Positions 1,366 through 21,973 of a stretch of 64,000 bases of DNA are shown here, in pieces. The position numbers and the translations under genes were made by a program. The DNA is from a virus. Within the stretch, counting starts at the first letter, position 1. Each line of letters starts with the position of its first letter. The DNA is taken from IMG/VR virus record IMGVR_UViG_3300015262_000001, positions 124,001 to 188,000 of that record; one strand, written 5' to 3'. The notes beneath the pieces are model-generated. The model was not told the origin of the DNA, did not search any database, and was given only the letters and a program-made list of their open reading frames with translations.

Positions 1366-1824
1366 ATGAGCACATTTACGCGATTCAGTGCAATCGAACA
1401 GTTGCAGTACGACAAAGCTGCAAGTGTGTTGAATAACAAGGACCTCTGGGCGGTTATCCCTGGATTCCGCTACTACATTGGTAGTGAAGGGTCTGATAAA
1501 TACGTAGATGTGGAAACAGGGTTCAGAACCGATGGGGCGACCATCCCTCGATTACTGTGGTGGATACTCCCTCCAATGGGGGAATACAGCCAAGCGTGCA
1601 CGTTACATGATAAATTGTGTCAAACGTACCGCATCACGCAAATCATTAACGGTGTCCCTACACAGGTTCCTGTCACTCGTAAAGAGATCGACGAGATTCT
1701 TAAAGAAGCCATGGATGTCCTCGAAGTGATTGCGTGGAAAAAGTTTCTCATTAATTGCGGAGTCGATGGGTATCGCATCGCTACCAATCCGACTAAACCA
1801 AAAGCCGGATACCTCGTAGCGTAA
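1366..1824 (+). CDS. DUF1353 family protein
   Basis: 152 residues. AAAGGA precedes the ATG with good spacing. The core GFRTDGATIPRLLWWILPP, then SQACTLHDKLC, is the hallmark of DUF1353, a small family common in phages, often near tail or lysis genes and of unknown biochemical role. The conserved Asp (TDGA), the His-Asp pair (LHD) and the WW cluster are all present. About 20 bases separate it from the fibre-like array, so it may be co-transcribed with that array. Family assignment is confident; function is unknown. Confidence 0.85.
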   Translation: MSTFTRFSAIEQLQYDKAASVLNNKDLWAVIPGFRYYIGSEGSDKYVDVETGFRTDGATIPRLLWWILPPMGEYSQACTLHDKLCQTYRITQIINGVPTQVPVTRKEIDEILKEAMDVLEVIAWKKFLINCGVDGYRIATNPTKPKAGYLVA

Positions 1825-6828: not shown

Positions 6829-7767
6829 ATGAACCTGAAACATCTTTGGACTAACATCAACACTGTCCCTGTAACAATCAAGATCTATCGTGCTGATACC
6901 CCAATCGACCCGCTTGCTTTACCAAGCCCGTTGGTGACGTTGTCCGCAGGGGAAGTAACCTGGACGGACCCTGATGCTGTTCGTGGACGTTACTACTACT
7001 ACATGTTCGAAACCACCAGTGCGAACGACCGTGTGCTAACCCCGAACTATCGCATCCAGGCTGTTCCTCGTTTGGGCCCAGGCCCTTCTGAGTTGAAGTA
7101 CGGAGATTACAACTACGGATACTTCGGAACCATTCCTTCCAGTGAGCTTATTAACACCGCTAACTTGAGGACTGCGGTAAACTTCTCTGCGGGTGCTGGC
7201 ACTAACGTATCGCCTGTCTGGCACAAGTATGCTCGTAACGGCAAAATCTTCTTCGTGCCTAACACTTGCTTAGGTCAGTCGGTCCAATGGTCGCAGATCT
7301 ACAATGCTGGCTTGGTATTTGGTGTGGCCGGCCCTGGTGATCACCGTAACGGTCTTAGCCCCATCGACCAGTACAAAACCGTAACGATTGGCCCTGATAC
7401 CTTCATCGTGCGCTTGATGAAAGGTTACAGTGATGACGTGACACGCATTGTTCCGACCGGCGCAGTGGACGAACCAGCTGAATACTCTAACGAGTGGAAC
7501 GACTTCATTTATCCGCTGGGTAAATTTGTTCCTCCTGCACAACGGTTAGTAAACGTTGCGTCCCAAGGGGTTCAAGAAATACTGCCTGGTCCTTGGAACG
7601 GTTATACGGGCGCCGGTGTGCAAGAAGCCAGCGCTACGGCCAACCATATTGTTCGTCGCGGAGCAGCGTTTGAAAGCCGAATCGGTATGGGACAACGTTC
7701 TAACAACACCGACTCCTACCTGTGCTCTTGGTACCCAATCCTGGAACTTGTAGCACCAGCCATCTAA
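6829..7767 (+). CDS. Virion-type protein, array type B, copy 2, Fn3-like domain
   Basis: 312 residues, 12 bases after 5821's stop, AAGGA before the ATG. The Fn3-like domain (IKIYRADTPID ... GEVTWTD ... YYYYMFETTSANDR) is visibly the sister of the one in 2904. Then GPGPSELKYGDYNYGYFG, WHKYARNGKIFFVP, QIYNAGLVFG, EWNDFIYPLGKFVPPAQR and WYPILEL. The pair with 2904 is the most similar in the array; for example YPL..(W/F)VP..QR is kept in both. Confidence 0.85.
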   Translation: MNLKHLWTNINTVPVTIKIYRADTPIDPLALPSPLVTLSAGEVTWTDPDAVRGRYYYYMFETTSANDRVLTPNYRIQAVPRLGPGPSELKYGDYNYGYFGTIPSSELINTANLRTAVNFSAGAGTNVSPVWHKYARNGKIFFVPNTCLGQSVQWSQIYNAGLVFGVAGPGDHRNGLSPIDQYKTVTIGPDTFIVRLMKGYSDDVTRIVPTGAVDEPAEYSNEWNDFIYPLGKFVPPAQRLVNVASQGVQEILPGPWNGYTGAGVQEASATANHIVRRGAAFESRIGMGQRSNNTDSYLCSWYPILELVAPAI

Positions 7768-7777
7768 GTGAGGATTT

Positions 7778-8701
7778 ATGTCTATCACGATTACATGGCC
7801 TGCCTCTAATGCGGGGGTCGCTACGGCGATCCGCATTTATGCAGCCACTGCAAAGATTGCGGACGATGCGTTACCAGCACCAATTGCAACACTGGCGGGT
7901 GATGCGACGTCGTTCTCCTGGGATCCACCAACCGACAATACGGTGTATTACTTCCGTATTGCAACTGACCGCGGATTGGATACAGATCTAGGTCCTAACC
8001 AGCCGTTTGGTTATTTCACTAGCACGGGACCAGGGCCACAGCAACCTGTTCGCGGTGATTGGGCGTTAGGCTATTTTGGGCGAGTTCCTGTGGCCCAGAT
8101 GATTTCAGGAACTGCACTCCGTACAGCCTTGGGTGTTGATGGGATCGGGTCTGTCATTTCTGATACCCAAATCCAATACTACTACAAGTTTGTACGTGAG
8201 GGTAAGATTCTGTTCTATCCCGCCGGTGCAATCATGACCAACGTAAGGTGGGACCAGTTGTACGGTCTTGGCTTGGTTTACGGAACTGATGACAACGGCG
8301 CTTATCCATCTGGCGCTGCACTCACTCCATTCAACCAAAAGAAAATAATCACCTTTGCTGGGTTCAACTTCCTGGCTCGGTGCTTTAAAGGTTCGACTTT
8401 ACCGACCACCACTTTGGTGACAACGGCAACAGCTGATAAAGAAGGGTCCGAGTGGGACCAAACCATGGGACGTGTAAATACGAACGCGGCTTTGTCTTGG
8501 AACTCCGGTTCTCTACTGGACGATAACACCTCCGTACCAGTTACCACGCAAGGTACCTTCACCCAGCACTTGTTCGTGGCCACAACCACTCCAAAGACAG
8601 CGCTCCATCGGGGAGCTTCGTCGGTCATTGATTCGATTAACCAAGCGAGCGCTGCATCGGCCACATATGGCTACTCTCCGTTACTCGAACTACAATTCTG
8701 A
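7778..8701 (+). CDS. Virion-type protein, array type C, copy 2, Fn3-like domain
   Basis: 307 residues, GAGG upstream of the ATG. Fn3-like domain (IRIYAATAKI ... NTVYYFRIAT), then GPGPQQPVRGDWALGYFG, YYKFVREGKILFYP, QLYGLGLVYGTDDNG, EWDQTMGR and YSPLLELQF. Counterpart of 3880. The final aromatic-PVLEL motif has drifted to SPLLEL. No other domain is recognised. Confidence 0.85.
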   Translation: MSITITWPASNAGVATAIRIYAATAKIADDALPAPIATLAGDATSFSWDPPTDNTVYYFRIATDRGLDTDLGPNQPFGYFTSTGPGPQQPVRGDWALGYFGRVPVAQMISGTALRTALGVDGIGSVISDTQIQYYYKFVREGKILFYPAGAIMTNVRWDQLYGLGLVYGTDDNGAYPSGAALTPFNQKKIITFAGFNFLARCFKGSTLPTTTLVTTATADKEGSEWDQTMGRVNTNAALSWNSGSLLDDNTSVPVTTQGTFTQHLFVATTTPKTALHRGASSVIDSINQASAASATYGYSPLLELQF

Positions 8702-8711
8702 GGAATGAACC

Positions 8712-9647
8712 ATGCCAATTAAATTGGATTGGATCGATCACAACGTCGCAGCGGATAGCCGTAATGTTTACCGTTCGACGACAAAGATCGACGTGGGTAA
8801 CTTACCCGCACCGTTGGCTGTACTCCCAGGTAATGCCCTGACGTATACCGACAACACAGTACAGCGCAACATCACGTATCACTACGTGGTTACAAGCGTC
8901 CAGGGAGCCGATGAAGCCCCCTCCGCCGAATACGTCATCGCGTATATCCCCAACACCGGCCCAGGTCCTCAGACGCTTCTCAGAGGCACCTGGGACTACG
9001 GTTACTTTGGGCGTGTTCCGCTGGAAGATATCTTTTCTGCTACAGAGTTCCTTACTGCCTGTGACATGTCAGCTTTGTCTACTGTCAACGCCACGTCTGG
9101 TAACTACTGGCACAAAGTTGTCTATAAAGGAAAGATCCTGTTCTTCCCTAACCTGATGATTGCGAGCACACTGTCGTTCCAATCGCTTTATCAGAAAGGA
9201 CTGGTGTACGGGTTGGAACCTTCCGCCAACTGGCCCTCTGCAATTAAAACGTTGTTAGGAACCATTGAGCAAGGAAAGATCGTTACATCTCAGGGTAATA
9301 GGTTTGTTGTTCGACTCCCTACGTCCAGAGAAACACTGGCCACCACCGGTACTACTAGCGCGCAGCTGCGCGGCGGGGAGATCGATAAGGTCTTTGCTGG
9401 GCTTTACTTGAACCGCGAGTTCAACGTGGATAACATCCCGGCTATGGATGAATCGTCTTCTACCATCGGTGTTTCTGTCCACCGACTGACGGCGGATTAC
9501 CACAGCACGACGGCCCAGGTTAACGTGGTGACACGAACCTGTATTTCCACCAACGGTAATATCGACTCTGTACAGGCAACTCCACTGCAATACAGCAACG
9601 CTTCCTCGTACGTCCAGTGGACTCCGGTACTGGAGTTGCAGATTTAA
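8712..9647 (+). CDS. Virion-type protein, array type D, copy 2, Fn3-like domain
   Basis: 311 residues, AGGAA upstream of the ATG. N-terminus LDWIDHN parallels LNWIDRN of 4817. Fn3-like domain (NVYRSTTKID ... NITYHYVVTSV), then GPGPQTLLRGTWDYGYFG, WHKVVYKGKILFFP, SLYQKGLVYG, GGEIDKVFAGL and WTPVLELQI. It is the last of the eight paralogues and lies 18 bases before the Kelch gene. Confidence 0.85.
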   Translation: MPIKLDWIDHNVAADSRNVYRSTTKIDVGNLPAPLAVLPGNALTYTDNTVQRNITYHYVVTSVQGADEAPSAEYVIAYIPNTGPGPQTLLRGTWDYGYFGRVPLEDIFSATEFLTACDMSALSTVNATSGNYWHKVVYKGKILFFPNLMIASTLSFQSLYQKGLVYGLEPSANWPSAIKTLLGTIEQGKIVTSQGNRFVVRLPTSRETLATTGTTSAQLRGGEIDKVFAGLYLNREFNVDNIPAMDESSSTIGVSVHRLTADYHSTTAQVNVVTRTCISTNGNIDSVQATPLQYSNASSYVQWTPVLELQI

Positions 9648-10621: not shown

Positions 10622-10655
10622 AACCCTACCCTCCCTTTTCGGGGAGGGTAGGGTT
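10622..10655. terminator. Bidirectional terminator between convergent Kelch and phaZ genes
   Basis: A perfect 14-bp stem (AACCCTACCCTCCC with its complement) with a 6-base loop lies between two convergent genes. On the leftward strand it is followed after about 10 bases by CTTTATTTTTTG, the same tail seen after other leftward hairpins in the window. Confidence 0.9.
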
Positions 10656-10664
10656 ATGGTTGGT

Positions 10665-11483
10665 TTACGCAGTCGCTAGGAACTCGGCGATAATAGGGAC
10701 AACCTTAGGCAAGTCGGTAAGCAGAAACAAGTGACCGTCATCGAATACATGTAGTTCCGAATTAGGGATCAGTGCTGCCAACACTTTCATGTTAGCCAAA
10801 GGAATCAACGGATCGTCATTACCGGCTAATACCAATGTCGGTTGTCTGATGTTCCACAACCAATGAAGACTGGTCCACCACCACACTGACATAACCTGAT
10901 AATAGTACCCTTGTTTACCGCTCGCTTTGGTTGTGGATTTATCCGCCGACATTTTAGCAGCATGAGCAGCAGCCAACTCTTTATCGTGTCGGAACTTACC
11001 GCCGTAAATATCGCCTGCAATGCTAGCAGCATACTCAGGGTCGGTGTAACGCCGAGGACTAGCCATTAGTGCCAGTACTGAGGACTTCGGCATGATAGAC
11101 ATGATACCGGAAGAAGTAGCCGCCAGAATAAGTCTGCGACACCGGACTGGATAATCGTGGGCAAACTGCTGAGCAAGGAATCCGCCCCAAGAAAGACCGA
11201 GTACATCTACTTGGCCGTAATTCAAATGATCAAGCATTTGAGAAACAATCTTCGCCAACCCAGAGAAACGGTAAGGCAGTACTGTAGACGGTGATCCACC
11301 AACCCCTGGAACATCAAAGGCGATTATTCCCAGATCAGGATTTAACGCCTCAACGAACGGTATAACAAGTTCAAGATTAGCCCCGATACCGTTGAATATT
11401 AGAAGAGGTGTTGTATTTGCAAGCCCTTCTCTTACAGCTACACGGATAATGCGCCCATTGATATCTATTGTTTTAATTTTCAT
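10665..11483 (-). CDS. phaZ: PhaZ-like intracellular poly(3-hydroxyalkanoate) depolymerase
   Basis: 272 residues, an alpha/beta hydrolase. Segments LLIFNGIGANLELV (27-40), AFDVPGVGGS, SWGG, YDYP-like HDYP, MASPRRY, LVLAGNDDPLIPL and DDGHLFL are characteristic of the medium-chain-length PHA depolymerase of Pseudomonas, which hydrolyses intracellular polyester granules. Likely triad: Ser98 in the lipase box GLSWG, Asp224, His251. Full length for the family and no signal peptide, so cytoplasmic. It is a single-gene unit enclosed by hairpins at 10622 and 11587, facing the Kelch gene. No phaC, phasin or other PHA gene is nearby. A host-derived auxiliary metabolic gene is the natural reading; another ester substrate cannot be excluded. 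Confidence 0.9.
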   Translation of the reverse strand: MKIKTIDINGRIIRVAVREGLANTTPLLIFNGIGANLELVIPFVEALNPDLGIIAFDVPGVGGSPSTVLPYRFSGLAKIVSQMLDHLNYGQVDVLGLSWGGFLAQQFAHDYPVRCRRLILAATSSGIMSIMPKSSVLALMASPRRYTDPEYAASIAGDIYGGKFRHDKELAAAHAAKMSADKSTTKASGKQGYYYQVMSVWWWTSLHWLWNIRQPTLVLAGNDDPLIPLANMKVLAALIPNSELHVFDDGHLFLLTDLPKVVPIIAEFLATA

Positions 11484-11511
11484 GTGCGTCCCCAGATGGT
11501 AATGACCAGTC

Positions 11512-11549: not shown

Positions 11550-11586
11550 TGATAAATCAGGAGACAAAAAATAAAGTAACAGGCTA

Positions 11587-11622
11587 GCTACCTCCTACCC
11601 CGCAAAGGGTAGGAGGTAGCTA
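11587..11622 (-). terminator. Terminator ending the 11.6-17.7 kb leftward operon
   Basis: A perfect 15-bp stem (AGCTACCTCCTACCC and complement) with a 6-base loop lies 8 bases after the stop of the 11630 gene. About 12 bases later the transcript reads CTTTATTTTTTG. Confidence 0.88.
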
Positions 11623-11629
11623 TAACTGC

Positions 11630-11824
11630 TTAGAGATTCAACTCAGATTCGAGACCATCGATAACTTCATCAAGGGTACCCTTTACTTCTGGACTGTCAT
11701 CGAAATAACCAGTCCACAGTTCCTCTACAGGGTCGTACTCCATCACCAGTCCTAGCCCCTGCTTGGTACATTCACGGGTGATATCGTTAATGCGTTCTTC
11801 AATGGTCATCTCTACTACTGGCAT
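11630..11824 (-). CDS. Small acidic protein, unknown
   Basis: 64 residues, acidic, with AAGGGG upstream of the ATG. The sequence (MTIEERINDITREC ... DEVIDGLESEL) is probably mostly helical with one central strand pair. No family recognised. It is the last gene of a leftward operon that starts near 17.7 kb, directly before the terminator. Confidence 0.7.
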   Translation of the reverse strand: MPVVEMTIEERINDITRECTKQGLGLVMEYDPVEELWTGYFDDSPEVKGTLDEVIDGLESELNL

Positions 11825-20332: not shown

Positions 20333-21973
20333 TTAAGACTGGATATGCACCGCTGCCAGCTTGTCCCCGATCAAGACGCTATCGAGACTGGCGAGGATCT
20401 TGGCTGTTTGCATACCACCACGCAATGCAGTGATCGACGCATAGGCCGTGTCAAAGATCCCCAACTCACGAGGAGTACCGACGGTGTTATCACGCATGTT
20501 GGTTACAACGAATGGACGTGGCTCATCCATGTCGATGACAGCGGCCATGATGGCGTCCTTCTCTTCCTTGGTGCCCAGAAGATTCATCATTGGACCCATC
20601 AGAAGAATGTACTGGGAGAAGATCACCTCAACAAAAGCATTGGCGATCTGGCCGTAAACAGGATCACTGGAGATCTCATCGGACAGATCACCCATAGCGA
20701 ACACACCAGCGGTGATCAGCGCGGTACCAACCCCTGGCAGAACGCCGTTAATCAAGGCCGACTTAACAGCTTTCGACACGTCCTCGAAACGGTCGATACG
20801 TTCCTTGATCTCGGACTGAGTTTCGCCACCGACAAACACGGTGATCAGCTCACCCTTCAGATCACGAATACGTTTCTCATTGAAACGGGCCCGCATGCTG
20901 AAACGCTCACCCCGCTCGTAACTGTTCAGCTCTTCTTCAATTGAAGCAACCTGCGCCGAAATCCGACCGCGTACAGCATCGCTGGTAGGTTCGAACACAG
21001 ACCGACTAGAACCGATGGTCAGCTTGTCATCGCAAGTGTTGAGGTCAACACTCATGACATCCGAGAATACCTTGACCATGCCAGCATTCAGCATGATTGA
21101 GATATCTTGCATCAACAAGGTACCGACCGAACCGCCAAAATTAGTTTGTGCACAGACGAATGCCTGGCGTTTAACCTGGTTGTTGACTTGCAGGATCACG
21201 CTGTTAATCGAGTTGTCAAAAGAACGAGCAATCAACAGGAAGCAAACTTCACCTTCCACTCGTTTGTCCAGCGCGCTCAGCATCTGGATTAGAACCTGCG
21301 CGTCCACGTTACGGACGTTGTCGTCAATAACGATCGGGATGAAATGCGTGAACTCAGATGCAGTGCCGTTTCCGTTTTTGCTGAACGACGGGTTACTGTA
21401 GATCAGGTTAACGGCCAGACCATTACTGCGAACAATCTGGTCATCACCACCCAAGCCTTCCTTGAGCTCGATTTCAGGGTACTTATCACCGGCAGCATGA
21501 TAGATGTCGGTAATAACCTTAGCGAGCTTCTCATCGCCGTTAGAGGACGTCAGAGCCAGACTGTACAACTCTGGACTGTCGTTGTTTACGGCAATGGACA
21601 TGCGACTGAGTTCGTCGATTGTTTTGTTGCACAACTTGTCAATGAACTTGCGCTCACGGTAGTTGGGGAACTGCGAGTACAGGCTGTACAGTTCAGCGGT
21701 TAGCAGAATGGTGGTGGTAGTACCGTCACCGCATTCCGTGTCGGTCTTGATTGCCGGCTCCAGAATAATGCGGTTGACAGCTTCGTGAAAGGGGTTCGGG
21801 AACTTCAGGGACTTTGCAACCGTTACACCGTCTTTGGTTACCTTGACGCTGGTACCGACAGTGATAGCCGAAAGTTTGCCATTAGGACCCATGGTGGAGA
21901 CAACAGCCTGACGGACGTTGGTCATTACATCTTCGACCAAGTCTTGAGTGTTGTTCAGGTGAGAATAAGACAT
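20333..21973 (-). CDS. groEL: GroEL-like chaperonin
   Basis: 546 residues, about the bacterial GroEL length. Equatorial and ATP-site motifs are visible: MGPNGKLSAI, VTKDGVTVAKSL (Asp48), ECGDGTTTTILL (Asp83), FVGGETQSEIKERIDRFEDV (catalytic Asp398) and GVLPGVGTALI. The apical domain is strongly diverged and the usual Gly-Gly-Met tail is absent. No GroES is seen in the window. Jumbo phages EL and OBP carry such chaperonins, and the EL protein is known to fold proteins without a co-chaperonin. Here the gene has its own promoter-like motif and a strong terminator, so it is probably expressed as one gene. Likely role: folding phage proteins in the infected cell. Confidence 0.93.
   Translation of the reverse strand: MSYSHLNNTQDLVEDVMTNVRQAVVSTMGPNGKLSAITVGTSVKVTKDGVTVAKSLKFPNPFHEAVNRIILEPAIKTDTECGDGTTTTILLTAELYSLYSQFPNYRERKFIDKLCNKTIDELSRMSIAVNNDSPELYSLALTSSNGDEKLAKVITDIYHAAGDKYPEIELKEGLGGDDQIVRSNGLAVNLIYSNPSFSKNGNGTASEFTHFIPIVIDDNVRNVDAQVLIQMLSALDKRVEGEVCFLLIARSFDNSINSVILQVNNQVKRQAFVCAQTNFGGSVGTLLMQDISIMLNAGMVKVFSDVMSVDLNTCDDKLTIGSSRSVFEPTSDAVRGRISAQVASIEEELNSYERGERFSMRARFNEKRIRDLKGELITVFVGGETQSEIKERIDRFEDVSKAVKSALINGVLPGVGTALITAGVFAMGDLSDEISSDPVYGQIANAFVEVIFSQYILLMGPMMNLLGTKEEKDAIMAAVIDMDEPRPFVVTNMRDNTVGTPRELGIFDTAYASITALRGGMQTAKILASLDSVLIGDKLAAVHIQS

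Follow-up and report, generated by a model that had tools for sequence, protein, structure and literature searches.

A predicted intracellular mcl-PHA depolymerase of the Pseudomonas PhaZ lineage in an EL-like jumbo phage and its recurrence among other phages

In environmental Pseudomonas, much of the carbon reserve can consist of PHA, and the viral handling of storage granules appears to have been little studied. In the intracellular depolymerase of medium-chain-length PHA (mcl-PHA), PhaZ, of P. putida KT2440, the catalytic triad is formed by Ser102, Asp221 and His248; the activity is abolished by a change of Asn35 or the loss of the motif FNGIG (34-38), and also when YYWQLF (190-195) or the lid (133-192) is removed, while the substitution S184F in the lid hinge nearly abolishes the depolymerase activity and raises the esterase activity (PMC12504323). 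The phages of PHA-producing mixed cultures have been described as carrying auxiliary metabolic genes (AMGs) of PHA synthesis, such as phaC, phbB, fadJ, acs and others, with depolymerases being unmentioned in that work (PMC12013262). An earlier note on the DNA considered here, made from the sequence alone, knew of no well-described phage enzyme hydrolysing PHA, and this is borne out by the absence of a phage PHA depolymerase from the open literature searched (subscription papers and preprints lying outside the scope) and by the 50,697 phage records of INPHARED, which gave no match above ~31% identity and none of the PhaZ family.

The window, i.e., the whole stretch of 64,000 nucleotides analysed, comprises positions 124001-188000 of a virus record of 228,597 bases (IMG/VR) and contains the following gene:

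10665..11483, minus strand: PhaZ coding sequence, 272 aa, ATG start, homologue of the intracellular mcl-PHA depolymerase by the TIGR02240 match and the AlphaFold2 model

The product was matched by TIGR02240, the NCBIfam equivalog model of poly(3-hydroxyalkanoate) depolymerase (intracellular mcl-PhaZ), with 379.8 bits (E 7e-114) at a curated cut-off of 250.6, so that the PhaZ homology proposed in the earlier note stands; the alignment spans model positions 4-264 of 276, approximately the last 12 positions of the model being missing from the protein. This cut-off was passed by 0 proteins in 14 well-known control genomes and exceeded by all ten representative copies taken from other phage loci (289-435 bits). 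The assignment to a generic alpha/beta hydrolase (PcaD, RutD, BioH etc.) was rejected, with none of these models reaching 95 bits (cut-offs 200-430) and with the tree separating them, and so was that to a short-chain PHA (PHB) depolymerase, for which the model NF050089 i_nPHAscl gave 56.4 bits against a cut-off of 300. The identity to Pseudomonas PhaZ (P. putida KT2440/GPo1) is ~63-64%. The chromosomal PhaZ of P. aeruginosa PA7 has a class II PHA synthase on either side, and the family is thereby anchored to mcl-PHA; this pha-cluster context, typical of the family and not defining it, was sought around the window gene, which stands alone.

The catalytic residues and the lid hinge are encoded as follows:

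11190..11192, minus strand: codon of the nucleophile Ser98 (GLSWGG), equivalent to Ser102 of KT2440 PhaZ, invariant in 74 homologues
10812..10814, minus strand: codon of Asp224 (NDDP), equivalent to KT2440 Asp221, invariant in 74 homologues
10731..10733, minus strand: codon of His251 (DGHLF), equivalent to KT2440 His248, invariant in 74 homologues
10890..10937, minus strand: lid-hinge stretch, residues 183-198, ending in YYYQVM, which is preceded by an insertion of 7 residues as compared with Pseudomonas PhaZ

The triad Ser98-Asp224-His251, named as likely before any comparison was made, is thus the aligned counterpart of the KT2440 triad, and together with Asn31, the equivalent of KT2440 Asn35, it is invariant in the alignment of 42 homologues from viral contigs (IMG/VR, the window included) and 32 bacterial ones; FNGIG is invariant across the phage copies. 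The hydrophobic hinge reads YYYQVM at 193-198 in the window and YYWQLF in KT2440, with the Y..Q lid motif kept. Besides the insertion, which is common to the copies of the window and of a 283-kb phage, L002, the hinge of the window protein has altered residues, and since S184F of KT2440 maps to this region, the specificity could differ. Accordingly, the substrate specificity is the weakest part of what may be predicted for this protein. In a set of 19 siphophage loci (L030, 8001-8783, and the other 18) the hinge is mostly YKLQ instead of YYWQ, which suggests a shift in the function or specificity of the lid.

In the AlphaFold2 model (pLDDT 90.2, pTM 0.91), the window protein adopts an alpha/beta hydrolase fold with a helical lid, the lid helices lying at ~134-201 between the core strands and the block of the lowest confidence at residues 181-190 (pLDDT 54). 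The solved structures resembling the model include esterases (8v16, TM 0.86) and the PhaZ of Bacillus thuringiensis (8ynv, TM ~0.79), and the esterase 5egn, which degrades acyl-homoserine lactones, also has the same fold; a choice among esterases would not be possible from the fold comparison alone. These data bear on the reading of the phage protein as a PhaZ-derived esterase that kept the fold and the triad, with the substrate shifted in phages, for example to a lipid of the host, an acyl-homoserine lactone or small acyl esters, and PHA granules no longer being the main target. Such a shift would be in line with the hinge insertion of the window and L002, the YKLQ variation, the turn of KT2440 PhaZ from depolymerase towards esterase by lid changes (PMC12504323), and a fold common to many esterases including 5egn. 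However, the equivalog-level score, the invariance of the residues essential to PHA hydrolysis, the strong purifying selection and the retention of the gene in numerous phages with mcl-PHA producers as their nearest known hosts make it unlikely, and a functional mcl-PHA depolymerase is preferred.

The tree, built on 74 sequences, unites the chromosomal PhaZ of Pseudomonas in a single clade (100/99), whose sister group comprises all the phage copies except that of a 280-kb phage, L047, and two bacterial orphans, one in P. lini (L051) and one on the P. silesiensis plasmid pPL1; this sister group is weakly supported as a whole (89/47), the support being 95/93 without the set of the locus L004. 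The window PhaZ clusters with L002, L003, L022/L048 and L051 (98/93). The comparison with Pseudomonas PhaZ suggested by the earlier note thus places the window protein at the sister level to the chromosomal clade, the union of the two as one clade being rejected (p-AU 0.0012). The placement with generic alpha/beta hydrolases, named beforehand as an outcome that would overturn the assignment, was equally rejected (p-AU 0.031), and in the tree including such hydrolases the protein falls within the PhaZ family (split 98/95). A single phage origin of all copies was also rejected (p-AU 5e-5), because the L047 copy branches with those of Paraburkholderia and Cupriavidus (100/94), which points to a separate acquisition by this jumbo phage from the side of Burkholderiaceae. 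In L047 the PhaZ part ends a 422-aa frame (7527-8795) with ~158 extra N-terminal residues, which may stem from a fusion or else from an upstream start.

The closest known relatives of the window PhaZ are phage copies, with 75 and 65% identity, since the top match in the bacterial genome collection, among the best 80 of 375 matches, reaches only 63%. P. lini has a canonical PhaZ (606 bits with TIGR02240) plus the orphan (333 bits). The latter, at 3995-4807 of L051 (P. lini CC269), has genes of the galE/glycosyltransferase type on one side and a histidine kinase on the other; the orphan of P. silesiensis (400 bits) is encoded at 15028-15921 of L138, the megaplasmid pPL1 (1.17 Mb) of an isolate from a plastics landfill. 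Phage surroundings were looked for at both, and the copies were found amid polysaccharide genes and amid plasmid-type genes, respectively; they are, therefore, orphan accessory copies.

The phage PhaZ are retained for their protein function under purifying selection, with dN/dS of ~0.03-0.14 among the close phage copies; between the window and L002 the synonymous sites are saturated (dS 2.7), and dN/dS for the window is only indicative. The GC content of PhaZ follows that of the carrier, with PhaZ/carrier values of 0.47/0.495 in the window and 0.44/0.41 and 0.62/0.58 in two further loci, the chromosomal copies having 0.65-0.67.

The location in a phage, as claimed from the beginning, was confirmed by the genes matching Pseudomonas phage EL in the same record, and the carrier is a 228.6-kb jumbo phage related to EL. 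The features that define the surroundings of PhaZ are the following:

20333..21973, minus strand: GroEL-like chaperonin that marks the EL-like lineage, 42.5% identical to EL GroEL
1366..1824, plus strand: conserved gene of 152 aa, left border of the slot, 68-79% identical in L145-L147
1846..10598, plus strand: nine tail-fibre/kelch-like genes, convergent with PhaZ (phrog_1062/3589/16120, three of the nine scanned)
11630..11824, minus strand: conserved gene of 64 aa, right border of the slot, homologues in L145-L148 84, 73, 31 and 70% identical

The GroEL and a 962-aa protein of the window are 42-45% identical over the full length to those of EL. To the right of PhaZ, from 22771 down to 12349, there are the homologues of EL gp144-gp150 in the kept order, and to the left there are matches to the tail-fibre genes of EL; opposite the convergent kelch gene gp153, EL has gp152 (acetyltransferase), whereas the window has PhaZ. 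A prophage or an artefact of a host contig was ruled out for the window by this synteny with EL and the relatives. The nine consecutive genes on the plus strand encode ~307-349 aa each and are mostly paralogous; this array is a strong candidate for host-range diversification through tandem duplication.

The stretch with the tail-fibre array and PhaZ is absent, nearly empty or otherwise filled in four sister phages, and different in EL. In one of them, L145, only ~90 bases separate the two border genes, and the nine tail-fibre genes with PhaZ are, therefore, the content of an occupied variable slot. PhaZ was sought across these four nearest relatives (L145-L148, 214-227 kb, GroEL 75-82% identical) and found in none, so that the gene is dispensable. 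The variable slot and the absence from the four relatives would also fit a passive passenger without a function in the phage, i.e., recently acquired host DNA or a chimeric assembly. Against it, however, are the phage copies as the nearest relatives, with host genes at no more than 63% among the best 80 of 375 bacterial matches, the base composition matching the phage, the low dN/dS, the hairpins and ribosome site of its own (see below), and the occurrence in many independent metagenome contigs with the position conserved within groups; the passenger reading is already largely refuted and highly improbable.

The signals around the gene are as follows:

11585..11622, minus strand: terminator-like hairpin upstream of PhaZ, which ends the preceding transcription unit (16-bp perfect stem, T-rich tail; -32.6 kcal/mol, z -6.5)
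11484..11495, minus strand: leader with a GGGGA Shine-Dalgarno-like stretch ~6 nt before the ATG, as read from the sequence
10622..10655, minus strand: terminator-like hairpin downstream of PhaZ (14-bp perfect stem, T-rich tail; -31.7 kcal/mol, z -6.2)

With the two flanking hairpins on its strand, PhaZ is most likely transcribed alone, as a one-gene cassette. Similar pairs of hairpins were looked for around the other phage PhaZ copies and are absent at most of them, so that the paired arrangement is particular to the window. The EL-type phages are thought to rely on their own RNA polymerases, and the search for a sigma-70 promoter of the window PhaZ, which gave none above chance, therefore says little.

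The recurrence of the gene in many unrelated phages, a point missing from the earlier note, was revealed by searching IMG/VR with five aligned phage PhaZ copies as the query. The search yielded 42 PhaZ loci with an identity of 46-75%, which sort by the flanking genes into 11 sets without neighbours in common, as defined by the comparison of 8-10 kb flanks, so that some sets could share relatedness elsewhere in the genome. Hallmark or other phage genes adjoin PhaZ in most of the sets, and several of the carriers are phages beyond doubt. L002 is syntenic with Pseudomonas phage Noxifer on both sides (60-88% identity), its PhaZ being flanked by the homologues of gp082 and gp080, in the position of gp081 of Noxifer; among these nearest isolated phages, the host of Noxifer is P. 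fluorescens SBW25, and that of EL is also a Pseudomonas. The genes of tail-tube and baseplate-hub proteins were found in L003, terminase in L008, an integrase in L012, phage RNA polymerase subunits in L047, and phage replication or nucleotide genes in L017, L020, L022 and L038. In the set of 19 siphophage loci, PhaZ stands by itself on the opposite strand, with the tail genes on one side and a head gene on the other, and the portal, tape-measure and head-morphogenesis genes are close by. No phage hallmark was seen near PhaZ (8001-8780) in the 21-kb contig L013, whose viral status comes from the IMG/VR call. The presence of the same gene in many otherwise unrelated phages makes the stored carbon look like a recurrent target of phage metabolism that seems to have gone undescribed.

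The integrase in the group that includes L012 and the moron-like arrangement in the 19 siphophage loci would also suit a fitness gene of lysogeny, by which temperate carriers tune or lower the PHA storage of the host, the lytic jumbo phages having merely borrowed it; this is considered quite unlikely, as both the phage of the window and L002 have lytic jumbo phages as relatives. A search of 25 Pseudomonas genomes at a very strict threshold gave no prophage copy of PhaZ, an uninformative outcome. PhaZ is a host-derived metabolic gene in genuine phage genomes, as seen from the EL-like synteny around the slot and the synteny of L002 with Noxifer, and its exchange or insertion at defined places (the Noxifer-like L002; the EL-like relatives without it) counts for the AMG reading.

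Thus, the window gene probably encodes a functional intracellular mcl-PHA depolymerase of the Pseudomonas PhaZ lineage, carried as an accessory cassette for mobilising the host mcl-PHA in infection. The substrate, the granule targeting, the timing and the benefit are proposed as follows. In infected Pseudomonas with PHA granules, the phage enzyme would attach to the surface of the granules and break the polyester down into (R)-3-hydroxyalkanoic acids, which the acyl-CoA synthetase and beta-oxidation of the host would convert to acetyl-CoA, NADH and FADH2 for phage production. A gain of carbon and reducing power was also proposed in the earlier note, which would place it late in infection. As the host already has a PhaZ, the phage copy would secure the supply of depolymerase after host shut-off or evade the host control of the pha cluster. 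The carriage of a wider PHA pathway was rejected, since the families of phasin (PF05597) and acyl-CoA synthetase (PF00501, AMP-binding) were both absent from 14 phage records, and the host enzymes would, therefore, have to use the products.

The relatives of the EL- and Noxifer-lineage jumbo phages build a large intracellular nucleus. The occurrence of PhaZ in these lineages and the lack of downstream catabolic genes would also fit a degradation of PHA for a physical benefit instead of a supply of carbon and energy, i.e., for clearing granules that crowd the cytoplasm and would hinder the growth of the phage nucleus, virion assembly or lysis, or for freeing granule-bound proteins; the gene is carried, however, by siphophages and other smaller phages without a nucleus too, and clearance as the benefit is regarded as a minor possibility. 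Carbon supply and granule clearing are both possible. On the liquidation of the polyester store, the broader view, held with somewhat less assurance than the prediction for the window gene but still leaned towards, is that phages, mainly of Pseudomonas and spanning roughly a dozen genome types unrelated to one another, use for it a dedicated diverged branch of PhaZ derived from at least two bacterial acquisitions, which would be a class of storage-polymer AMG not yet described.

If the depolymerase is recurrent and selected, the drainage of granules on infection and the dependence of burst size on the nutritional state become testable in laboratory strains. The phage copies would also make up a diverged and so far unexplored collection of mcl-PHA depolymerases, in which lid structure could be related to specificity, and they would serve as a warning that phages may degrade the product during PHA fermentations.

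The phage enzyme resembles the Pseudomonas PhaZ of KT2440/GPo1 in the equivalog score, the triad, the Asn, FNGIG and lid motifs, the length and the predicted fold, and differs from it in being a single-gene phage cassette instead of a part of phaC1-phaZ-phaC2, in the hinge insertion and the lack of the last ~12 positions, and in belonging to a separate, mostly phage group. With the AMGs of PHA synthesis it has in common an action of phage genes on PHA metabolism, whereas those genes make PHA, were found by annotating metagenomic phages and include no depolymerase (PMC12013262). Phage capsule or exopolysaccharide "depolymerases" share only the name, being virion-borne polysaccharide hydrolases or lyases, while the window PhaZ is a predicted intracellular serine hydrolase of polyester. 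The cyanophage pentose-phosphate genes and other such AMGs redirect the carbon or energy of the host; in the same manner, PhaZ is a host-derived metabolic enzyme kept by phages that presumably redirects host carbon, but its target would be a storage polymer, the intracellular polyester granules.
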